From the IMG/VR virus record IMGVR_UViG_3300032093_001060, positions 1-20,207 of that record: a stretch of DNA of 20,207 nt. One strand, 5' to 3'. Positions 1,803 through 15,441 of the stretch are shown in pieces (the stretch's first letter is position 1; every line of letters begins with the position of its first letter). The position numbers and the translations under genes are program-made. The notes beneath the pieces were generated by a model that did not search any database, was not told where the DNA came from, and was given only the letters and a program-made list of their open reading frames with translations. Source of the stretch: a virus.

Positions 1803-2363
1803 ATGGGTTGGAAAGTAACGACTGCACCGGTAAATGAACCTTGGACATTGCAAGAGGTTAAAGATTATTTAAAGATTGATGACTCAAACGAGGACACAAT
1901 GATAAATACTTTAATTAAAGGTGCAAGGATGGTGGCAGAAAGTTATCTTAACCAAGCATTAATAACACAAACAATAACGGAGAAATTTGATAGGTTGTCT
2001 AATCCTACTATTTATCTTAGTGTATCTCCAGTTATTGCAGTTACTAATTTCCAGTACGCAGATAGCCAAAATACTACGCAAACCTTTGCATCTACTAATT
2101 ATGTCGTTGACACATTCAGTAAGCCTGCAAGGTTAACGCTTGGCTACGGCAAGACATGGCCAACACTTTATGGGAATATAAATGATGTTACGATTACTTA
2201 TACGGCTGGCTACGATACAGAAAGTAGCGGTGTACCATACCAAATAAGACAAGCTATTTTATTAATGATAGCTGATACATACGAGAATAGACAAGATTAC
2301 GTTAGAAAGCTACCAACGGCTTCTCAATATCTTTTAGACCAATATAGAGTTCAATATTTCTAA
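1803..2363 (+). CDS. gp6-like head-tail connector protein
   Basis: This protein likely forms the ring beneath the portal that joins head and tail. The N-terminal segment W-T-L-Q-E-V-K-D-Y-L-K-I (about 14-25), followed by a D/N/E-rich turn, an acidic helix and AESYLNQALITQT, is the hallmark of the HK97 gp6 / phiE125 gp8 group of connectors. The C-terminal part (VPYQIRQAILLMIADTYENR, about 144-163) is the matching terminal helix. At 186 aa it has the usual family length. It follows the capsid gene across a 64-bp gap with a hairpin, and its TAA overlaps the next ATG (TAATG at 2361-2365), so translation of the head-closure gene is probably coupled to it. Confidence 0.85.
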   Translation: MGWKVTTAPVNEPWTLQEVKDYLKIDDSNEDTMINTLIKGARMVAESYLNQALITQTITEKFDRLSNPTIYLSVSPVIAVTNFQYADSQNTTQTFASTNYVVDTFSKPARLTLGYGKTWPTLYGNINDVTITYTAGYDTESSGVPYQIRQAILLMIADTYENRQDYVRKLPTASQYLLDQYRVQYF

Positions 2364-4300
2364 TGAAATACAACAAAAATGAAATTATTGGTCGAATGCG
2401 TGATAGGATTACCATCCAAAATGTCACACGTTCAAAATCAGATACAGGCTTTGCCCAGGAGTCATGGGCAGATAGTGCCATAGTTTGGGCGAATGCCGAA
2501 AGCAAGTTACCTCCATCCAATGAAACGGTAATTGATGGGAAGAATACTGCTAAAAATATAAGTGACTTTACAATAAGATATACGACAGGCATAGATGAAG
2601 AAAGTCGTATTATATGGAATGACAAACTGTATCAAGTTAGAAATATAAAGGTAAGTCACGATAGAAGATTTATAAGTTTTCAAGGCGAATTCTACGACTC
2701 ATACATACTTACCGGTGTTTCCGTTGCTGCCATCCTTTCAGCCAATGCAAGCCTATCTTCCAATGTTAAGGTGATACATAATGTGCTTGCTGCTATGAAT
2801 GCAATAGCAACAACGAACGCTGAAATAGTTGTTAGCCAACAAGGTCAAGTATTACTTGACTCTTCCCTCTCCGCATCTGGCAATGTTTCTGCTGATGCTA
2901 CAAAAGTGATAAAAATTAATAGCGATGTTACTGCAAATGGCACTTTAGCTGCTTCGGTGACAAAAGCTATAAATATAGATAGCACACTAAATGTAAATGC
3001 TACTTTAGTTGGCGATGCTTTAGTGAGCAAAACATTATTAAGTACATTAAATGCAAGTGCTACGACATCGGCTGCGGTTGATGTTGTGACGCAAGGTTTA
3101 GTAAGTGTAGATGCAGCTTTAACAGGATTAGGCACTGTTTCTGCTGATATTTTCCGTACAGTTACATTAGAAAGTAGTTCAAGCACAAGTGCAACAACAG
3201 AATTAAACGCTACGCTTACCAAAGTCATTGAGGCATCAATGAACGCTGCTGCAATTACTGAAAGTGCTGCACAGTTAACGATTGCCGTTAACGCTGAAAC
3301 TAATGCAATTGCTACAACATCAGCAGATGCTACACTATCATATACAGTCAATGCCGAGTTAAACGCTACGGCACAAACAACGGTTAATGCACAGATAACG
3401 AGGATTATTTCTGCAGACATGACTGCAACGGCACAGACAAGTGTTGAGGCTGGCATTGGTGTTACATTTGTTTCTTCATTAATGGCTGCTGGTTCTGTGA
3501 CTAATGCTGAATTGTTTAGAACGGCAACGCTTGAAAGTTTTTTAACTGCAAACGGCACAACGACATCAGCAATTACAACGGCTAAGAATATTTCGGCAAG
3601 TGTAAGCGGAGCGGCAACGGTGACGAACAGTAATTTACAATTATTTGACCCTAATTTTTCATCAGTACAATTATTATTGCATGGGAATGGAACAAATGGA
3701 AGTACTACATTTACCGATAATTCAAACAACAACTTTAGTTTAACAAGAGGTGGAAATACAGTTATTTCAACTGCGCAAAGTAAATTTGGAGGAGCAAGTA
3801 TTTTATTTGATGGAGCTGGAGATTATTTACAAATACCTAATAATTCAAATCTTACATTAGGTACTGGTGATTTTACTATGGAATTTTGGATATATCCATT
3901 AAGTCAACCTGGTTTATTTAATACAATTATTGGAGGCGATGCAACGTCTCAACCAATAGTAAATTTAAGAGGTAGTGGCACGAGTTCAAGTATTAGTATG
4001 AATGTTTTTGGAAGTGCCGATATATTTAATGAATCCTTTACATTTACTCAAAATAATTGGTATCATGTTGCAATTTCAAGAAGTGGTACAAGTCTAAAAG
4101 TATATGTTAATGGAAATCAAATAGGTCCTACAATTACAAATAGTACAAATATATCAGCTCCAATAACGTGTGTAGGAGGTCTTATTTCCTATGCACAAAA
4201 TTTTAATGGTTATATAGATGATGTAAGAATAACAAAAGGAGTTGCAAGATATACTGGGTCAACATTGACAGTACCTACAAGGGAATTTTTAGACCAATAA
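2363..4300 (+). CDS. Head-closure protein fused to repeat region and LamG-like domain
   Basis: Three parts are visible in one uninterrupted 645-aa frame. Residues 1-112 resemble the SPP1 gp16 / HK97 head-closure adaptor family, with the opening GRMRDRITIQNVTRS, a central W-A-x-A-E, and IIWNDKLYQVRNIK. That family normally ends at about 110 residues. Residues ~115-425 are Ala/Thr/Ser/Asn-rich tandem repeats of about 20 aa. Residues ~427-640 are a concanavalin A-like LamG domain, with LLLHGNGTNGSTTFTD, SILFDGAGDYLQIP, DFTMEFWIYP, WYHVAISRSG, YVNGNQIG and YIDDVRITKGVARYTGS. I infer that the adaptor anchors the chain in the neck and the repeats form a stalk that displays the LamG domain, perhaps as a neck whisker or decoration that binds glycans. 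The start overlaps the preceding stop. The LamG part is more A/T-rich than the repeats, which hints at a separate origin. Confidence 0.8.
   Translation: MKYNKNEIIGRMRDRITIQNVTRSKSDTGFAQESWADSAIVWANAESKLPPSNETVIDGKNTAKNISDFTIRYTTGIDEESRIIWNDKLYQVRNIKVSHDRRFISFQGEFYDSYILTGVSVAAILSANASLSSNVKVIHNVLAAMNAIATTNAEIVVSQQGQVLLDSSLSASGNVSADATKVIKINSDVTANGTLAASVTKAINIDSTLNVNATLVGDALVSKTLLSTLNASATTSAAVDVVTQGLVSVDAALTGLGTVSADIFRTVTLESSSSTSATTELNATLTKVIEASMNAAAITESAAQLTIAVNAETNAIATTSADATLSYTVNAELNATAQTTVNAQITRIISADMTATAQTSVEAGIGVTFVSSLMAAGSVTNAELFRTATLESFLTANGTTTSAITTAKNISASVSGAATVTNSNLQLFDPNFSSVQLLLHGNGTNGSTTFTDNSNNNFSLTRGGNTVISTAQSKFGGASILFDGAGDYLQIPNNSNLTLGTGDFTMEFWIYPLSQPGLFNTIIGGDATSQPIVNLRGSGTSSSISMNVFGSADIFNESFTFTQNNWYHVAISRSGTSLKVYVNGNQIGPTITNSTNISAPITCVGGLISYAQNFNGYIDDVRITKGVARYTGSTLTVPTREFLDQ
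2710..3640 (+). repeat. Diverged tandem repeats of about 60 nt (about 20 aa)
   Basis: Within the head-closure fusion the protein cycles with a period of about 20-21 residues. Each unit has the rough pattern [V/L/E]-x-[S/A]-x-[L/V]-x-A-x-[A/G]-T-x-[S/N]-A-x-x-T-x-x-[I/L]. Examples are VNAETNAIATTSADATLSYT and VNAELNATAQTTVNAQITRI, which are adjacent, and two units that contain F-R-T-[V/A]-T-L-E-S. I count roughly 13-14 units. DNA identity between units is low, so these are old or selected protein repeats and not recent slippage. Confidence 0.7.
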
Positions 4301-4310
4301 ACCTAACACG

Positions 4311-5285
4311 ATGAAAATAGCCATTTTTACAAACATCAACTCCCCTGCTACCGACTTTTACCGAACGGTTGGCTGCTATGCCTACATGGGGCATGATATA
4401 AGATACCTTGCCATTGAATCGGCAAAGTGGTATGATTTAATGGATGTTGATGTAGTAGTGGCTAAATCTCCTAATGGAATGCCTTACTTTGAGATGCTAA
4501 GAGAGTGTAAAAGGATGGGTAAGAAGATTATTATTGACCATGACGATAATCTACACGAAACAACACGCACTAACCCTGCACACCTTGGACTAAGCCATGA
4601 GGCAATGCGAAAAACGGTTGAGAATTGCTTTGGCTTTGCTAACCACATTATTTATTCTACTCATGCCTTGCAAAAGTATTATATGAAATATCATGAAGGC
4701 ATTGCAAGCACAGTTATAAATAATGGATGGAATCCAATCATTCAGCCATTTATGCCAGTGCCTAAGATAGAAGATAAGATAAGATTTATATGGAGAGGCT
4801 CAATGCACCACTTGGATGACATAGGTAGCATAGCAAGTTATATTAATGAGTTAGCGAAAGATGAAAGCTGCGATGTTGCCATGCTTGGCATTCAAGATTT
4901 TATCATGGCTCATCTATTTCCAAAGGTGAAAACAAAGGAATGGAATAGTAGTTTATTTGGCTACTTTGAAACATTAAACAATAGCCAATGTCACTACGGC
5001 TTATTTCCGTTACTCAAAAACGATTTTAACTTTGCAAAGAGCAATATATTTGCCATTGAGATGTTAGTCGCTGGTGGTGTAACGATTGCGCCAAAGGGCA
5101 TACCAGAGTACAACATTCCAGGTGTAATAAAGTATGAGAAGTTTGGCGATGTCATGGAGGCAGTGAAAAACAAAGACTTTGACAGAGAGGCAATAGTAAA
5201 GGAGGGAAGGGAATATTTGAACGATGTGCTTAGAGTGGATAAGCAGAACAAAAAAAGAGAACTAATTTTAAATAATTTAAACTAA
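4311..5285 (+). CDS. Glycosyltransferase-like protein
   Basis: This 324-aa protein is probably a GT-B-type sugar transferase. The N-terminal Rossmann-like half opens with MKIAIFTNINSPATDFYR, followed by a strand ending VVVAKSPNG and the segment KKIIIDHDDNLHE (about 73-85), which is characteristic of phage-encoded glycosyltransferases in structural modules. The C-terminal half has FIWRGSMHHLDDI (a strand plus Gly), CHYGLFPL, and SNIFAIEMLVAGGVTIAPKGIPEY. The last resembles the E-x-x-A-x-G-x-P donor-binding region of GT4-like enzymes. The start is 10 bp after the LamG-bearing gene and the stop 6 bp before the next gene, so it is in the late operon. It could glycosylate a capsid, neck or tail protein or alter host surface sugars; donor and acceptor cannot be told. 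No signal peptide or membrane segment is seen. Confidence 0.75.
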   Translation: MKIAIFTNINSPATDFYRTVGCYAYMGHDIRYLAIESAKWYDLMDVDVVVAKSPNGMPYFEMLRECKRMGKKIIIDHDDNLHETTRTNPAHLGLSHEAMRKTVENCFGFANHIIYSTHALQKYYMKYHEGIASTVINNGWNPIIQPFMPVPKIEDKIRFIWRGSMHHLDDIGSIASYINELAKDESCDVAMLGIQDFIMAHLFPKVKTKEWNSSLFGYFETLNNSQCHYGLFPLLKNDFNFAKSNIFAIEMLVAGGVTIAPKGIPEYNIPGVIKYEKFGDVMEAVKNKDFDREAIVKEGREYLNDVLRVDKQNKKRELILNNLN

Positions 5286-8072: not shown

Positions 8073-10184
8073 ATGGCAGGCGGTTCTACTTTAATGCTAA
8101 AACTTGGCATAGATGTTTCCAACCTTTCCAGAGAACTGGCCAAGGTGGAAAGTCGCATGGCTAAGTTTGGCTCACAAATGCAATCTATAGGCAGCACAAT
8201 GACGCAGTCTATTACGCTGCCATTGATTGGTGTTGGTGCGGCTTCTTTAAAGGCATTTGCTGACATGGAGAAGTTGGAGAAGGGATTAACTGCTATTATG
8301 GGTAGTAGTGAAGGAGCAAAGGAAGAGTTAGATAAATTAAGGAAAGTTGCCGAGAATCCTGGTCTTGCTTTACCTGAAGTTGTTAAAGCTTCAGCTTCTT
8401 TGCAATCAGTAGGAATGTCTGCCGATGCTGCCAGAGAAACTATTACACAGTTTGGTAATGCAGTAGCAAGGTCTGGAGGTGGTGCAGAACAGTTTAGTGG
8501 AGTTACGTTGGCATTAAGTCAGATAAGTGCAGTTGGTAAAGTTACACAAGAAGATCTTAATCAGATAAAAGAAAGGTTGCCAGAGTTTGCCAGAGTGATG
8601 AAAGAGGAATTTGGCACAGTTACTGCAGAAGGTATAAGGGCAATAGGTGTAAGTAGCGAGGAATTTATTACGCGATCCGTATCTGCCTTAAGTAAGTTGG
8701 AAAGGGCGCAAGGAGGGTTAGGGAATACGTTTGATAATTTAAAGGATAATGTAACGGCTTCTTTGGCAGAATTTGGTAAAGCAATTAATGAATCATTAAA
8801 TTTACAAGCCGTTGCAGAAAGTTTAAGCAAATATATACAAGGATTAGTAGATGGATTTAAGGCGCTTAATCCAGAGACGCAAGGCTTTATAGTTAAGGCT
8901 GCTTTGGTAGCCGCATCTATAGGTCCTATTATATTTATTGTGGGTAAATTAATAAGTACATATGGTGCTTTAGTTGGTGCTACAAAATTTGTGGTGCAAG
9001 GAATTGGTAATATAAGTAAAGCATTTACCTACTTAGCAGCTAACCCAATGATTTTAGTTGTTACTGCATCAATTGCTGCGCTTGGTGCGATTGCCTTATA
9101 TGTATATGATAATTGGCAAGCATTTACTGATAGATTTAAAAATATATGGATAAATATTAAAAATAGCGTGATGTCAGGTGTGGCATCAGTTTTAAAAAGT
9201 ATAGATAATTTACAAAAATCTCTTGGATTAAAATTATTTAATCTTGATGGATTAACTGAATATCAAAAAGAGCAAAGAATTGTTGCTACTGAATTTAAAA
9301 GTATTGGAGAAACGGTTGATAGTTTAAAAGGTAAACTTGCTTCATTGTTTACTACTGGTGCAAAAGCAAGTGGAGGTGGCGGAGGTATAACTTCACCAAC
9401 TTTACCAACTGAACCAACTGCAATTAATACAGGTGGTACAGTCGGTAAAGCAGCTACTTTACAACCTTCTACACAGCCTTTAGGTATTACAACAATGTTG
9501 CCAACATTAGATGTGTTGCCAACAAAATTAACAAGCGTTACAGCTGAAGCAGAAAGATTAAAAGAAACAATATTAGCTTTAAATGATGCTACTACAAAAT
9601 TTGTTCCTCCTATTCCTGCTATTGTAGCTTTTAAAACTGAAATAGAGTCTTTAGGATTAAAAATGAATGAATTAGGTAACGCATCAATAAATATTAATTC
9701 TGCTATATCATCAGGTATTGGACTTTTAGCAAATGAGTTTGAAAAAGGTATAGGTTCATTTAATGATTTTGCTAATGCAGTAGTTAAAGGTGGTTTAAGC
9801 ATTATAAAGTCATTGATACAACAAGGTGTTGCTGCAGCAGTAGCTAACACTTTAAAAGGGCCTGCTGGTACATTAGGTCCAGTTGGTGTAGCTATTGCAG
9901 GTGCAGCTGGAGCTTTAGCATCTGGATTATTTACTACAATAATTTCAAAAATATCTCCTCCCAAACTTGCAGAAGGCGGCTTGGCTTTTGGACCAACGAT
10001 GGCAACGGTGGGAGATAATAGAAACGCAAGGGTTGACCCTGAAGTTATAGCACCTCTTTCAAAATTAAAGGCTATGCTTGGCGATGTAGGAGGCATGGGC
10101 GGAGTGTTGGAAACAAGGATAAGTGGCAATGATTTGATTATTTTATTAAATCGTTCACAAAAGACTTTAAATAGAGTTCAATAA
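8073..10184 (+). CDS. Tail tape measure protein
   Basis: This protein sets tail length and fills the tail lumen, and it is probably ejected at infection. The 703-aa protein opens with a motif common in tape measure proteins (MLKLGIDVSNLSRELAKVESRMAKFGSQMQ), followed by SMTQSITLPLIGVG. Long helical stretches and an N-terminal tape-measure domain follow (MGSSEGAKEELDKLRKVAE... LPEVVKASASLQSVG). Hydrophobic, membrane-compatible segments lie near 271-300, 325-347 and 560-630. The C-terminal segment LAEGGLAFGPTMATVGDNRNARVDPEVIAPLSKLKAML (about 633-670, key residues E-G-G, V-G-D, P-E-V-I-A-P-L) is a recurrent tape-measure ending. A Gly/Thr/Pro-rich linker lies near 430-470. By the usual rule of about 0.15 nm per residue, the tail would be near 100 nm. 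Its stop overlaps the next start (TAATG). Confidence 0.92.
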   Translation: MAGGSTLMLKLGIDVSNLSRELAKVESRMAKFGSQMQSIGSTMTQSITLPLIGVGAASLKAFADMEKLEKGLTAIMGSSEGAKEELDKLRKVAENPGLALPEVVKASASLQSVGMSADAARETITQFGNAVARSGGGAEQFSGVTLALSQISAVGKVTQEDLNQIKERLPEFARVMKEEFGTVTAEGIRAIGVSSEEFITRSVSALSKLERAQGGLGNTFDNLKDNVTASLAEFGKAINESLNLQAVAESLSKYIQGLVDGFKALNPETQGFIVKAALVAASIGPIIFIVGKLISTYGALVGATKFVVQGIGNISKAFTYLAANPMILVVTASIAALGAIALYVYDNWQAFTDRFKNIWINIKNSVMSGVASVLKSIDNLQKSLGLKLFNLDGLTEYQKEQRIVATEFKSIGETVDSLKGKLASLFTTGAKASGGGGGITSPTLPTEPTAINTGGTVGKAATLQPSTQPLGITTMLPTLDVLPTKLTSVTAEAERLKETILALNDATTKFVPPIPAIVAFKTEIESLGLKMNELGNASININSAISSGIGLLANEFEKGIGSFNDFANAVVKGGLSIIKSLIQQGVAAAVANTLKGPAGTLGPVGVAIAGAAGALASGLFTTIISKISPPKLAEGGLAFGPTMATVGDNRNARVDPEVIAPLSKLKAMLGDVGGMGGVLETRISGNDLIILLNRSQKTLNRVQ

Positions 10185-12406
10185 TGGCGGTAAGGTATCA
10201 AACGACTGTTTACAACGAGAAGAAAAGGAAGATAACTATATCTATTAAAGATAAAGATTATTCTGGTGCAGTCGGTTCTTTTGATACTATCAATATTCAG
10301 CTTCAATATGACAGTGAAACAAGCCAAGGCATGGAGCGTTTTGCTCCTATTATCGGATCTCGATTAAGATTAAATTTAATTATAAATTCTGCAGCTTTAC
10401 AAACTTTGCTTAATGACATAGGATTTGCCGTTGAGGGTAGGTTTAGCATGGAGTTGACAAGTTATGAGGATGATAATACAACAGTACTATTTAAATGGTA
10501 TGGATATATAGTTACTGATTTAGTAGAGTTTGAAGATGTTACAACGGATATAGGATTCACTGCACAAATTGAGGCGGTTGATGGCTTAGCGTGGTTGAAA
10601 ACATTGTTGTATAAAAGTGAGGTAGGTCCTTATTTAGGTCAAGATACAGTAGTTCAGCATATTTGTAATTGTTTAAATCAACTGGATTTCGTACAGGAGA
10701 ATTTAGTAGCAAATAACTTGCCAATACTACACACTGTATTTAATTGGCATGAAAATAGTATAACTTATTCAGCAAATAATGACTTTGCACTGCGCACAGT
10801 TATAAGTCACAGAGCCTTTTATCACAGAGATACAAAGAATAATTATACCTATCAAAGTTGCTACGATGTATTGAAAAAAATATGCCAGACATTTGGAGCA
10901 AGGCTTTTATTTAGTGGAAATCAATATTGGTTTATTCAAGTTAACGAATATCTTAATCCAAAGAATCATAGATATTTTAAATATAATGGTTTTGGCATTC
11001 AGAGTAGTGGTACATTTAATTTAGATTTTACTACTTTAAATCGGCAAACTGATTTAGCCAATAGTAAATTAATGCGTTTAAGCGGTGGCAGATGGTCATA
11101 TTATCCTCCGTTAAAAAATGCAGTTATACGCTATAACTATTTTGGAAAACAAAATTTACTTGCCGGGAAAGAATATACCTACGCTACAAATGCGACACCT
11201 GAGCAAGTTATCACTCCCACATTGGATAGCACAAATGTAGAGGCAAGGTTAAGTTATACAGGCATTTTAAATTTTTACGCTGCGGTAATTTCTCCTGCTA
11301 CTTTTGAGCCTTATCAATTTGTATTTGCTATTAAATTAGCATCTATAATTAATTCATTTCCTTTACAGGGTTTTGCATCTGCTAATTGGACATTGGGCAG
11401 TGGTTGGTTAATTGCTGATGGCATATTGGAGGGAACATTGGCTGCGACAGAAGCTTATTATACTACTTTTAGCGTTACTGCTAATAGAAAATATTACGTT
11501 AATATAAAAGTAAAATTAGATAATACTGGAGAGTTAAGGCTACGTTTAGGAGGAGTTACAAAAACAATAACTGAAAGTGGAGATTATGAATATATCATAG
11601 AATCAATAAACACAAATACATTAAAATTAGATTCTATATCTACTCCTAATTTTACTGGTAAAATAACATCCTTACAAGTAAAACAAGAAAATAAATATTT
11701 AAAAAGAAATGTCAATTATACAACTGGTTTTAATTTTCAGTTAGATGCTGCCAGTTGGGAGACATCAGCAGCAGAATATGAATTTAATGTAGAAACTGTA
11801 TTTGCTGATAATGCTTTTGTAGTTAATAAAACAATATCATTTGATACTTTAGATATTCCTGAGACTGCTGAATATGTTTGGTCAATGCGTTTAAAGGAGA
11901 TGCGCAATGAGGCAGGAACAAATATTATAAGCAATTACGCACTTTCATATACTATTAATAATAATTATTTAGAATTTCTTCCGGATGGCACTATTGGCGG
12001 ACAAGCAGATATAAAAGAATACGGATCAGATAACGATGAAAAATCTTCTGTAGTATTTGATTTAGATACATACTTAGGCGATGGAATATCCGCAACAACA
12101 AATGGCGCTTTAAAAGTTAAAGAAGACGCTGGTACATTTAAGCTAAGTAATACCTGGGATGTTTCCTCCGGGCAAGGCTTTAACAAAGTGACGCAGCTTC
12201 TTGTGAATGAAGTAATAAAAGGACAGTTAAGACCTTTACCAAGAATGATAGATATGCCATTTCAAAATTTAAGCATAGATGATGTTTATTTACCTCACAA
12301 AGTAATTGAATACTCATCCGGATATTATGTATTTGAGCGTGGTTTATACGACTTAAACACAGATATTTGGAGAGGTGATTACTTTAAAATAGATGAGCAT
12401 GCCTAG
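10184..12406 (+). CDS. Large tail-tip / baseplate protein
   Basis: This 740-aa protein follows the tape measure gene, where distal tail and hub proteins are encoded. Residues 1-150 are beta-rich (VYNEKKRKITISIKDKDYSG, RFSMELTSYEDDNTTVLFKWYGYIVTD). Next comes a helical part, HICNCLNQLDFVQENL, and SCYDVLKKICQTFGARLLFSGNQYWFIQV near 222-250, which resembles the hub-type fold of tail proteins. Residues ~393-505 form a distinct insert (ANWTLGSGWLIADGILEG ... YYVNIKVKLDNTGELRLRLGG) with the look of a carbohydrate-binding beta sandwich. The last ~200 residues return to tail-type sequence. I cannot assign it to a named family such as Dit or Tal, so the role as tail hub/baseplate is inferred from position. 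It overlaps its neighbours at both ends (1 bp and 14 bp). Confidence 0.7.
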   Translation: MAVRYQTTVYNEKKRKITISIKDKDYSGAVGSFDTINIQLQYDSETSQGMERFAPIIGSRLRLNLIINSAALQTLLNDIGFAVEGRFSMELTSYEDDNTTVLFKWYGYIVTDLVEFEDVTTDIGFTAQIEAVDGLAWLKTLLYKSEVGPYLGQDTVVQHICNCLNQLDFVQENLVANNLPILHTVFNWHENSITYSANNDFALRTVISHRAFYHRDTKNNYTYQSCYDVLKKICQTFGARLLFSGNQYWFIQVNEYLNPKNHRYFKYNGFGIQSSGTFNLDFTTLNRQTDLANSKLMRLSGGRWSYYPPLKNAVIRYNYFGKQNLLAGKEYTYATNATPEQVITPTLDSTNVEARLSYTGILNFYAAVISPATFEPYQFVFAIKLASIINSFPLQGFASANWTLGSGWLIADGILEGTLAATEAYYTTFSVTANRKYYVNIKVKLDNTGELRLRLGGVTKTITESGDYEYIIESINTNTLKLDSISTPNFTGKITSLQVKQENKYLKRNVNYTTGFNFQLDAASWETSAAEYEFNVETVFADNAFVVNKTISFDTLDIPETAEYVWSMRLKEMRNEAGTNIISNYALSYTINNNYLEFLPDGTIGGQADIKEYGSDNDEKSSVVFDLDTYLGDGISATTNGALKVKEDAGTFKLSNTWDVSSGQGFNKVTQLLVNEVIKGQLRPLPRMIDMPFQNLSIDDVYLPHKVIEYSSGYYVFERGLYDLNTDIWRGDYFKIDEHA

Positions 12407-12770
12407 TTATACAGAAAGAACAGTTTTATCGAAACCTCGCGACTTTGCAGAAGTTGCTAATAACGCAGGAAGTGGCGGAGTAGTTAATAATAATGTTAAT
12501 GAAAGCATTACCAATGTAACTGTAACAGGTTCTTTAATTTCTATATTTTCAGAGGAATTTATTGCAGTTAATTCCAATGTTTTAACGTACACTAAAAACG
12601 ATGGAGTTTTGCCAACCACAAATACAGATGCATCTATCCAAGTTTATCAAAATGGGCAGAAATTAATTGCATCTCAATATACCATTACTCAACCAAGCAC
12701 AATTACAATAGATAGTAATACGCATTACGATGGTTCAAATTATATAATTTTTGCAATAATTATAAACTAA
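12393..12770 (+). CDS. Small tail-associated protein
   Basis: This 125-aa protein has no clear family. It begins with a polar segment and a G-S-G-G-V-V-N-N-N-V linker (26-35), then becomes beta-rich (ITNVTVTGSLISIFS, TNTDASIQVYQNGQKLIASQYTI, IIFAIIIN), like short accessory tail or fibre-attachment proteins. The start overlaps the previous gene by 14 bp, and a second ATG at 12399 is possible. An AGAGGTGA stretch at 12371-12378 is one of the few Shine-Dalgarno-like elements in the window, though its spacing to either ATG is long. The stop overlaps the fibre-gene start as TAATG. Confidence 0.65.
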   Translation: MSMPSYTERTVLSKPRDFAEVANNAGSGGVVNNNVNESITNVTVTGSLISIFSEEFIAVNSNVLTYTKNDGVLPTTNTDASIQVYQNGQKLIASQYTITQPSTITIDSNTHYDGSNYIIFAIIIN

Positions 12771-15025
12771 TGGAAATACAAGCACCTAAGAAAGAAAGAA
12801 AGATTTTAAAATCTATTGGTCGCATTGCTGGTGTTTTAGCGCAAGAACTTGTACTTGGTTTAGGAAGAAAATACATAGGTAAAATGATAAACAAAATTAA
12901 GATTCCAAAGAAAAGAGAAACGCTATCCTTTCTCATCCTCCTTTCCTGCACCTTTGCCTTTGCCCAGTATCCAGCGACAGGCAATAAACAAAGATTGGGT
13001 TATCAAACAACTGGAGATGGATTGGTTTTTAGAGGAAGGTCAAGCGATACAACAGCATTAAAACCTTCTACTATTAATAATGCTTACCATTTATTTGATA
13101 CAGTAAACAATGTCTTATTTAGTTACATTAAGACTAAAGGAGGATGGAAGTTTAATAATTCAGACACGGTAATTATTCAAGGTGCAACAATGCCATTTGA
13201 TTCTATTACCTTTAATACGGCAAAGGATGGCACAGTAGGAGTGGGTGAAGTAGAATACAATGATTCGCAAGGCTCTTTGATTCAAGGCTTAAAAGGTGGC
13301 AATGTGACCAATGTAATAGGGCAGCAACTACATCAAAGAGTAAGCAATGTTACTGGCTCAACATTATCTAAGGGTACTGCGGTTTATTTGTCAGGTAGCC
13401 AGGGAAACAGAATAACGGCAGCCAAGGCACTTGCAACAAGCGATCCAACATCGGCAAATACATTTGGTATAGTGGCTGAAAGCATAGCAGACAATGCAAG
13501 TGGCTATGTTATTACAGAAGGATTAATTACCGGAATAAACACATCAGGATTAACAGAAGATTCTGCGGTTTACTTATCTCCAACAGTTGCAGGAGGATTA
13601 ACATCAACCAAGCCACAAGCACCTAATCATAATGTTTATATTGGTGTTTGTGTTAAGAGTAATGCTGGTTCTGGTGAATTGTTCGTCAAAATAAAAAATG
13701 GCTTAGAATTAGATGAATTGCATGATGTGTTAATTACATCGCCTGCAAGTAATGCAAGTTTGTATTATAAAAGTAGTGAAGGTATTTGGCGAGACACAAC
13801 TGCAGCACTTTTGGTAAGTGACACAGCTACCATGCTTACAAATTATTTAAGGTCAGGTGTTGCAGCTTCGACATATCAAACAAAGTTAAATGGCACTGGT
13901 TTTGTAAAAGCAAGCGGTACAACCATAACTTATGATAATTCAACTTATCTTACATCCTCAACTGGTGTTACCACTTTTTCAGCAGGTACTACTGGCTTTA
14001 CACCATCCTCTGCTACATCTGGCGCAGTGACATTGGCTGGCACATTAGCAATTGCCAACGGAGGCACAGGTGCTACATCAGCCTCTGCTGCAAGGACTGC
14101 TTTAGGTGCAACGGTTCGAGGTGCAAATACTTTTACTTTAACAGATATAGGAGCAATTTCATTTTTAAGATACAATGCAGATAATACGGTTAGCCAAAGG
14201 GCAGCCGATGGAATGCGTAGTGATTTGGGAGGTACAACAATAGGCCAATCAATGTTTACATTAACCAATCCTTCTGCTATTACTTTCCCAAGGTTTAACG
14301 CTGATAATACGGTGAGCGCATTAAGTGCTACAGATTTCAGAACTGCTATTGGCGCAGGGACAGGTAATGGAAATGGTACTGTTACAAGCGTTACAGGAAC
14401 TTTACCTATTTCATCAAGTGGAGGAACTACACCAAATATAACTATTGCTAATGCTTCAACTACTGCATCTGGTGTAGTTACTACATCAACTCAAAGTATG
14501 GCAGGAAATAAAACATTTACGGGAGATTTGGCAACAAGTGGAGCATTTAGCGCAACAGGTTTTAGCACATTAACAGGCGGTGCAAGTGTAGGTACAATGG
14601 CCACAACATCTTCATTAACTCATGTTCTTGGTGTAAATAGTAGTAATACAATAGGTGAAATATCCATAGGTAGCGGATTAAGTTTAACAAGTGGTTCTTT
14701 ATCGGTTACAAGAGGTGATAATGGTTATTTATCATCAACATCCACAACAATATCACTAATAAGTGATTACGGTTTAATTGAGCAATTATATTTAAAAATA
14801 AATCAAAGTTCTACGGTTACAATTACATTACCAACTGCAAGTTTAAATACAGGTATGGCGATTACTATAAAAAATATAGGAAATGGTGCAGTTAATTCAA
14901 ATGCAAATAATATTGAACCTTTAAATAGTTCAACATTAGATGCAATAATATTAACATCTGGTGGAGGTAAATTTACTACTCTTGTAAGCGATGGTTCTAA
15001 CTGGTTAAAAATGGCTGGAAATTAA
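12770..15025 (+). CDS. Tail-fibre-like protein with internal signal-peptide-like segment
   Basis: This 751-aa protein is probably a receptor-binding fibre or tip protein. Residues 1-45 are basic and amphipathic. Residues 47-66 (KKRETLSFLILLSCTFAFAQ) have the charged, hydrophobic and AFA-Q parts of a Sec signal peptide. From residue 67 on it is a Ser/Thr/Gly-rich beta chain typical of phage fibres. It has GNVTNVIGQQLHQRVSNVTG near 174-193, two 41-aa tandem repeats (445-526), and a C-terminal domain ending LVSDGSNWLKMAGN, a common fibre end. If translation began at the internal ATG at 12884 (residue 39), the product would be a 713-aa protein with an N-terminal signal of ordinary length. The overlap with the upstream stop (TAATG) favours 12770. 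Confidence 0.75.
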   Translation: MEIQAPKKERKILKSIGRIAGVLAQELVLGLGRKYIGKMINKIKIPKKRETLSFLILLSCTFAFAQYPATGNKQRLGYQTTGDGLVFRGRSSDTTALKPSTINNAYHLFDTVNNVLFSYIKTKGGWKFNNSDTVIIQGATMPFDSITFNTAKDGTVGVGEVEYNDSQGSLIQGLKGGNVTNVIGQQLHQRVSNVTGSTLSKGTAVYLSGSQGNRITAAKALATSDPTSANTFGIVAESIADNASGYVITEGLITGINTSGLTEDSAVYLSPTVAGGLTSTKPQAPNHNVYIGVCVKSNAGSGELFVKIKNGLELDELHDVLITSPASNASLYYKSSEGIWRDTTAALLVSDTATMLTNYLRSGVAASTYQTKLNGTGFVKASGTTITYDNSTYLTSSTGVTTFSAGTTGFTPSSATSGAVTLAGTLAIANGGTGATSASAARTALGATVRGANTFTLTDIGAISFLRYNADNTVSQRAADGMRSDLGGTTIGQSMFTLTNPSAITFPRFNADNTVSALSATDFRTAIGAGTGNGNGTVTSVTGTLPISSSGGTTPNITIANASTTASGVVTTSTQSMAGNKTFTGDLATSGAFSATGFSTLTGGASVGTMATTSSLTHVLGVNSSNTIGEISIGSGLSLTSGSLSVTRGDNGYLSSTSTTISLISDYGLIEQLYLKINQSSTVTITLPTASLNTGMAITIKNIGNGAVNSNANNIEPLNSSTLDAIILTSGGGKFTTLVSDGSNWLKMAGN
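14102..14347 (+). repeat. Two tandem 123-nt (41-aa) repeats in the fibre gene
   Basis: Unit 1 (14102-14224) and unit 2 (14225-14347) both encode LG-x-T-x-x-x-x-x-x-F-T-L-T-x-x-x-A-I-[S/T]-F-x-R-[Y/F]-NADNTVS followed by A-x-x-R. A partial third match begins with IGAGTG. The same 'ADNTVSxLSAxxFRTAIGA' type repeat is frequent in fibre proteins and probably forms a trimeric beta shaft. Confidence 0.8.
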
Positions 15026-15036
15026 ATAGTATAAAT

Positions 15037-15441
15037 ATGAAATCAATAATTTACAACCTTTTAAAACTTGGTTATGACGGTATAGTTTATTCTATTTGTT
15101 GTGGAGTAATTTTCTCGTTTTTTCTGCCTATCCAACATTTTTTGAGTTTTACAATTTTTGTAGTTTTTTCAGATACAATTACAGGTATTCTTGCGGCAAA
15201 AAAAAGGAATGAAAAAATAACAAGTAAAGGCTTATATCGTACTTCACAAAAGATTGTTGTTTATTTTGTGGGTATCATGATTTTTCACGGTGCTAGTGTT
15301 ACTTTTGGGTTACCTTCGCAAATAGTATATAGTGTTAGTTTCTTAATTTCATTCACTGAGTTATATAGTATTTCGGAGAATATAAAATCAATAACTGGAG
15401 CAAACATTGGTACAATTATTCTTAGATTTTTCAGACGTTAA
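15037..15441 (+). CDS. Phage holin (Phage_holin_4-like)
   Basis: Holins open the inner membrane so the endolysin can reach the peptidoglycan. This 134-aa protein has several membrane segments: about 13-45 (GIVYSICCGVIFSFFLPIQHFLSFTIFVVFSDTITGILAAKK), about 74-92 (VVYFVGIMIFHGASVTFGL) and about 97-112 (VYSVSFLISFTELYSI). The pattern F-x-D-T-x-T-G-I-L-A-A-x-K followed by TSKGLYRTSQKI is typical of the Phage_holin_4 / TcdE-like holins (D-x-x-T-G-x-x-x-A). The sequence S-E-N-I-x-x-x-x-G near the C terminus also fits. An amidase gene lies 1.2 kb downstream. The start follows the fibre gene by 11 bp and has an A/T-rich leader without a Shine-Dalgarno site. Confidence 0.85.
   Translation: MKSIIYNLLKLGYDGIVYSICCGVIFSFFLPIQHFLSFTIFVVFSDTITGILAAKKRNEKITSKGLYRTSQKIVVYFVGIMIFHGASVTFGLPSQIVYSVSFLISFTELYSISENIKSITGANIGTIILRFFRR

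Follow-up and report, generated by a model that had tools for sequence, protein, structure and literature searches.

A fibre-like gene in a phage late region with a conserved Sec-type signal peptide behind a basic N-terminal extension

Tailed-phage assembly is taught as a cytoplasmic process, and the known phage fibres with an S74 (endosialidase-chaperone) domain are virion proteins assembled in the cytoplasm. Gene A, the subject of this study, encodes a fibre-like protein of 751 amino acids (aa) whose N terminus resembles a bacterial signal peptide behind a basic extension, and it lies in the virus record IMGVR_UViG_3300032093_001060 (20,207 bases; this whole stretch is called the window below). 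Phage genes with Bacteroidota-type signal peptides are already known. The nearest account, as far as the accessible part of the source goes, concerns Porphyromonas gingivalis phages, whose Q-rule proteins have signal peptides exposing glutamine (Gln) like that of gene A; these genes differ in being described as of function not known, and not as fibres (PMC10367356). According to the accessible parts of two further papers, two Bacteroides phages have two and one genes with such signal peptides (PMC5723332), and the phage proteins targeted by diversity-generating retroelements are without signal peptides (PMC6199706).

The mosaic adhesive trimer (MAT) fibres of Bdellovibrio are phage-fibre-like trimers in which a signal peptide is followed by a beta-rich domain of about 130 aa; they differ from gene A in being cellular genes of the predator and not of a phage, and the accessible text on them mentions no extended signal (PMC10769870). 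In autotransporters with an ESPR, a charged N-terminal extension stands ahead of a normal signal core in large exported proteins, according to the accessible part of that source (PMC2805444). The sequence of gene A is different, no beta-barrel translocator follows and the phylum is another one; since no Pfam match to the ESPR family was obtained at E 0.1, the extension is a likeness to ESPR and not a member of it. Among phage proteins, gene A is like gp091-gp094 of Cellulophaga phage phi10:1 and gp085-gp087 of Cellulophaga phage phi18:3, which belong to the fibre blocks of Bacteroidota phages, start with canonical Sec signals that precede a Gln, and are annotated from tandem mass spectrometry (MS/MS) of virions. 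The phi10:1 set also lies, like gene A, downstream of a homologue of the 740-aa tail protein of the window. However, the proteins of both phages are without the 48-residue extension, those of phi10:1 show no enrichment of the D[ST]X motif discussed below, and no match between the phi10:1 proteins and gene A was found among the matches listed. The likeness to S74 fibres lies in the Peptidase_S74 end of a paralogue, gene B, and of one gene A relative (locus L165), while the window protein itself has no S74 match. Our literature search, whose scope did not take in the original Cellulophaga virion proteomics paper, returned no description of virion tail fibres that bear a signal.

The explanation that we prefer for gene A, at a rough probability of 45%, is a late tail fibre of receptor-binding type. 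It would be translated as a Sec preprotein bearing an extended signal peptide, would be processed in the periplasm and would join the tail at about the time of lysis. Relatives were collected by a scan of viral contigs (80 loci, 66 of which include the gene A start) and by two further scans in which only the extension served as query (313 and 314 relatives found, the best 80 of each kept); loci from different scans share contigs and the combined set of 241 loci has repeats, while the sets of 134 and 55 are distinct sequences. A common layout was found in the 66 loci, in which some 45 basic residues are followed by a hydrophobic core, then by a cleavage-type site and a conserved domain that mostly starts with Q-Y/F-P. 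In the window protein, residues 49-65 are signal-peptide-like and end in FAFA directly before Q66. Among 55 distinct N-termini, position -1 is Ala in all 55 and position -3 is Ala in 51 and Ser in 4; in the wider set of 134, position -1 is Ala (126) or Gly (8), position -3 is Ala (59), Leu (51), Ser (20), Ile (3) or Val (1), and position +1 is Gln (112), Ser (18), Ala (3) or Cys (1). Only 3 of the 626 h-region residues in the 55 sequences are polar (623 non-polar), and the ratio of non-synonymous to synonymous substitution rates (dN/dS; 55 sequences) is 0.26 in the extension, 0.34 in the signal and 0.12-0.22 in the mature part, so that this architecture is under purifying selection. Sequence drift in the core has left its character and the cleavage site intact, which is how a signal peptide in use looks.

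The features of a Sec and signal peptidase I substrate are all present (positive n-region, uncharged h-region, small residue at -1), and Q66 and its counterparts agree with the Bacteroidota Q-rule, by which Gln stands at +1 in a mean of 71% of signal peptidase I substrates in the accessible text of the source (PMC5837995). Signal calls were made with a simple but strict rule on hydrophobicity, charge and cleavage site, under which no more than 6 of the 22 B proteins are recognised; it flags 34 of 34 de-duplicated A-type proteins versus 5 of 85 others, one of these five being a misfiled A-type protein. An earlier sequence-only reading of the window had called a 751-aa open reading frame (ORF) at 12770-15025 with a Bacteroidota-type signal peptide; the ORF was confirmed, and the signal peptide is borne out by a -1/-3/+1 pattern far above chance in the relatives. 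Its description of the 45 preceding residues as basic and amphipathic stands in the first word (net charge +6 in residues 10-38) and not in the second, as the hydrophobic moment is 0.28 versus 0.21 in shuffles and 27% of the shuffles reach it. A lipoprotein lipobox is not conserved (Cys60 occurs in 32 of 55 sequences only, and inside the core rather than at +1) and the Pfam and NCBIfam scans gave no match to a C-terminal domain of the type IX secretion system (T9SS), so no outer-membrane anchor is visible. Judged by its sequence, the gene A product is very probably exported.

Bacteroidota glycosylate non-cytoplasmic proteins at motifs of Asp, Ser or Thr and a hydrophobic residue, according to the accessible part of the source (PMC12871550). 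We counted D[ST][AILVMT] in de-duplicated sets, with expected numbers obtained by shuffling, and found 7 motifs in the window protein (3.4 expected). For 35 A proteins, 355 motifs were observed and 144.2 expected (observed/expected 2.46); the figures are 81 and 32.5 for B (22 proteins), 11 and 2.5 for a further signal-bearing family, gene C (3 proteins), and 232 and 83.3 for a second clade of A (22 proteins). Families taken as non-exported gave 79 and 63.2 (53 proteins). This pool excludes the holin family (11 observed, 1.8 expected) and includes the phosphoesterase family, also high at 6 and 2.5. The enrichment is specific to Asp at the first position, for which the other residues tested gave 0.40-1.50 in A, and in A the third residue is hydrophobic in 75% of cases after D[ST] versus 45% after other [ST]. 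At sites 264, 342 and 351 the motif is present in 20, 34 and 31 of 34 A-type proteins versus 0 of 11 homologues without a signal; site 329 carries it in 0 A-type proteins versus 1 of the 11.

These control fibres (L070-L080) have no other window gene in common in the six examined, so their hosts may differ and the comparison with g125, a small protein of the same phages, is the better control. Taken as non-exported on account of having no signal, the g125 module as a separate protein contains 2 motifs in 1,378 residues (4.6 expected), whereas the same module inside A contains 19 in 825 residues (3.5 expected; 11 of 11 de-duplicated modules), and the enrichment is thus tied to export. On sequence comparison, g125 and the fibre share modules, and the g125 module recurs in gene A of relatives, often as two copies; of 35 representatives, 11 contain it, with 22 modules in all. 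If exported, the gene A product is likely to be O-glycosylated.

Gene A is located between the tail-tip and lysis genes in the window, in its relatives and by synteny with Cellulophaga phage phi18:1; the order in relatives is the 740-aa tail protein, g125, gene A, holin, g98 and amidase. In order to compare with proteins seen in virions, we used the records of Cellulophaga phages phi40:1, phi13:1, phi10:1, phi18:1 and phi18:3, in which structural proteins are annotated from virion MS/MS. Rows were counted if their note names MS/MS or 'part of structural', or breaks off after 'part of'; the phi19:2 rows, which are annotated by similarity, and phi18:1 gp52, whose note breaks off sooner, were left out. 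At least 7 of 57 structural proteins (4 of 45 plus 3 of 12) are flagged by the signal rule, a lower bound because the rule is strict. The flagged proteins are the phi10:1 and phi18:3 sets named above, each a run of adjoining genes, and phi10:1 gp088, the homologue of the 740-aa tail protein (E 5e-6), is directly upstream of the first run. Residues 1-118 of phi10:1 gp093 and phi18:3 gp086, a stretch that includes the signal, show 83% identity, even though these phages are assigned to different families. The premise of the sequence-only reading that virion proteins are normally cytoplasmic is thus not safe for Bacteroidota phages. We put the chance that the gene A product, if exported, is part of the virion at somewhat better than even, by analogy with these proteins and with a phi18:1 structural protein known from MS/MS that takes the place of gene A. 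Adjoining the phi10:1 run is gp095 (L206:17389-18879), a pectate lyase with a signal-like start and without an MS/MS note.

Exported companions accompany gene A in other loci, while the window contains neither of them. Gene B (about 350-545 aa) is inserted in many relatives and has a textbook signal peptide, for example MKQLLFLLLFPCLALA followed by Gln at the cleavage site; its mature N-terminal domain is the same as that of gene A, the extension is absent, and a Peptidase_S74 chaperone domain was found in all three B proteins scanned. Gene C (about 200 aa), also with a signal peptide, is located between fibre B and holin (L041:4734-5333, and also in L167, L171, L182, L184-L188 and L191); the C products scanned have no Pfam or NCBIfam match above cut-off and no strong PHROG match. 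Upstream of the extension in the 241 loci there is a tail protein with g125 in 125, a portal with a connector gene in 74 and too little sequence in 42, so that the cassette occurs in phage genomes of two kinds.

In the mechanism that we propose, the 48-residue basic extension and the hydrophobic core would form one unusually long signal peptide, and by analogy we lean towards the extension working in this way. It would remain on the cytoplasmic side and tune targeting or delay the folding of a long repetitive fibre; gene A being long with the extension and B shorter without it recalls the long signal sequences of large autotransporters. Host signal peptidase I would cut the core after A65, Q66 would become pyroglutamate as in Q-rule proteins, and the fibre chain would trimerise in the periplasm, where the host may O-glycosylate it at the D-S/T-X sites. 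The fibre would reach the tail tip once holin and endolysin open the cell, with the Q66 domain common to A and B as the candidate dock to the tail after cleavage.

The signal on gene A and the signal-bearing virion proteins of other phages suggest that the virus may have a part that is completed outside the cytoplasm. A wider proposal is tentative and, in our estimate, somewhat improbable: some Bacteroidota tailed phages would complete their virions outside the cytoplasm, with Sec-exported, cut, pyroglutamate-capped and, in some lineages, host-O-glycosylated fibres docking at lysis, and the fibre cassette would move between unrelated families because its assembly pathway is that of the host envelope. 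If true, some fibres are built in the periplasm and are able to carry host glycans, which bears on host range, on the engineering of Bacteroidota phages and on where assembly ends.

Several observations weigh against a periplasmic virion fibre or its generality. We know of no route by which a periplasmic fibre gets onto a cytoplasmic tail. As to the signal, phi18:1 gp61 is a structural protein by MS/MS in the position of gene A and has none, nor has the large fibre-like protein of Flavobacterium phage 11b. In Croceibacter phage P2559Y, none of the fibre-block genes bears a signal. Among the cultured phages of the collection, none has a match to the extension plus signal of gene A; their sole N-terminal match, from a Nitrincola phage, starts without a signal. 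The MS/MS support is record annotation from other phages, and exported proteins could co-purify with virions. As to glycosylation, site 225 (13442-13450) is reversed, with the motif in 0 A-type proteins and in 7 of the 11 non-signal homologues. In the signal-bearing virion proteins of phi10:1, 5 motifs were counted against an expected 10.8, which indicates that glycosylation is not a general reason for exporting fibres; the count for 45 structural proteins annotated from MS/MS is 65 against an expected 85.3, contrary to a general rule.

The main rival is that gene A, together with B and C, makes a late exported fibre that is no virion part, being periplasmic, surface-located or released, and whose role is to block receptors, coat debris or change the envelope of the cell as it dies. 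Such an envelope or decoy role is possible, and all of the export evidence fits it as well; B and C are exported too, by sequence, and the cassette stands behind portal and connector genes as well as behind tail genes. The Q-rule proteins of the P. gingivalis phages are likewise read as possible outer-membrane modifiers in the accessible part of that account (PMC10367356). We nevertheless hold it to be unlikely, given the lack of a visible outer-membrane anchor, the overlap with a late tail gene upstream, which is ill-suited to lysogenic exclusion, and the virion MS/MS annotation of the seven signal-bearing structural proteins of phi10:1 and phi18:3; moreover, of the genes that lie in the window between the 740-aa tail protein and the holin, none but gene A and g125 is a candidate for a fibre. 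Conversely, gene A could be a virion fibre that stays in the cytoplasm, whose extension and hydrophobic helix form a tail-docking or membrane-inserting segment resembling a signal peptide. The extension is conserved in sequence as a binding site would be and homologous bodies sit on non-signal N termini in other phages, but the cleavage-site residues and the +1 Gln are kept while the core drifts, B couples the same mature domain to its signal peptide, and the glycosylation motifs are linked to export, which together make this reading distinctly improbable.

Two further explanations build on options of the sequence-only reading. One is a dual product, with a full-length virion form and a secreted form from an internal start at 12884 (residue 39). 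An ATG is present there, and of 55 distinct relatives 28 share it at the aligned codon, but the other 27 have no start codon at this position. In 23 of the 55, codons 30-50 contain neither ATG nor GTG nor TTG, and one relative (L012) has no start codon throughout codons 2-65. The single conserved start is the upstream ATG, which overlaps the preceding stop codon as TAATG in 64 of 66 loci, and a second product from the internal ATG, against which the comparison of relatives already largely decides, is hardly credible. The other is a chimera in transition, in which a small phage gene was recently fused to the gene for an exported host fibre and the signal is a relic. B does represent a signal-plus-fibre unit without extension. 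However, the first 45 residues were never seen as a stand-alone gene, with signal and fibre following the extension in the same reading frame in all of the 78 and 80 loci parsed from the two scans; both extension and signal are under purifying selection, and a scan of a genome collection gave a single match, on a phage-like contig. We consider a recent fusion very unlikely. An older fusion is possible from the sequences, as in paralogue B a plain signal peptide, with no extension, precedes the mature N-terminal domain that it has in common with gene A.

Regarding the fibre body, residues within 141-420 match annotated tail or tail fibre proteins (E 2e-28 for the best annotated tail fibre), the best overall match (E 2e-38) being to an unannotated phage record; the PHROG tail fibre match for gene A is only E 0.0024. 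Where complete, the gene A products of relatives are mostly 650-1,390 aa long. An AlphaFold model of residues 1-417 (24 sequences) has a mean predicted local distance difference test score (pLDDT) of 34, and its helices at 10-40 and 48-63 were noted with no further use. Residues 66-185 (54 sequences; model m372821086746) reached a pLDDT of 65.6; with this model Foldseek found nothing in the PDB below E 0.7, and a sequence search of the PDB gave no match.

The late region of the window is of siphophage type, with a major capsid protein (homologues in annotated phages), a head completion protein, tape measure, holin and amidase. The coordinates of gene A, its parts and its neighbours are listed in Table 1.

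Table 1. Coordinates in the window of gene A, its parts and adjoining genes
Feature	Position	Strand	Basis
Gene A, fibre-like, 751 aa, full coding sequence	12770..15025	+	ORF, relatives, fibre-like body
N-terminal extension, residues 1-48, basic, conserved (ME-I-APKKERKFLK...GxGxKxIxK)	12770..12913	+	relatives, dN/dS 0.26
Signal-peptide core and c-region, residues 49-65, predicted cleavage after A65	12914..12964	+	relatives
Mature N-terminal domain from Q66, residues 66-185; first part common to paralogue B	12965..13324	+	
Fibre body domain, residues 181-365; occurs in other phages behind a non-signal N terminus	13310..13864	+	
Distal part, residues 366-751; length and C-terminal end vary among relatives	13865..15022	+	
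Four D[ST][AILVMT] motifs, residues 93, 110, 132, 144	13046..13207	+	
Three D[ST][AILVMT] motifs, residues 264, 342, 351; in 0/11 non-signal homologues	13559..13828	+	
TAATG, upstream-gene stop overlapping gene A start	12768..12772	+	64/66 loci
Internal ATG (Met39), not conserved	12884..12886	+	
g125, small upstream protein (125 aa) without signal; module recurs inside gene A of relatives	12393..12770	+	
740-aa tail protein	10184..12406	+	homologous to Cellulophaga phi18:1 gp59, phi10:1 gp088 (MS/MS structural) and a Flavobacterium phage 11b protein
Holin (Phage_holin_4_1), gene after A	15037..15441	+	

The host was not identified directly, as the genome collection scan gave one relative only, on a 4,053-base phage-like contig in a metagenome-assembled genome (MAG) of Actinomycetales. 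Besides the gene A relative, this contig (L161) carries one portal-like and one connector-like gene, and it is probably a mis-binned phage contig. The Q-rule, the glycosylation motifs and the homologues in Flavobacterium and Cellulophaga phages lead us to infer a Bacteroidota host.

Two other genes of the window were noticed. A glycosyltransferase-like gene (PHROG 7162) lies at 4311-5285 within the head-tail gene block, and Cellulophaga phage phi18:1 has a putative glycosyltransferase ahead of its capsid gene. The gene at 2363-4300 fuses a Phage_HCP head-completion domain with a long repetitive part and a laminin-G/concanavalin-like domain, and it looks as though a decoration fibre had grown from the neck protein.

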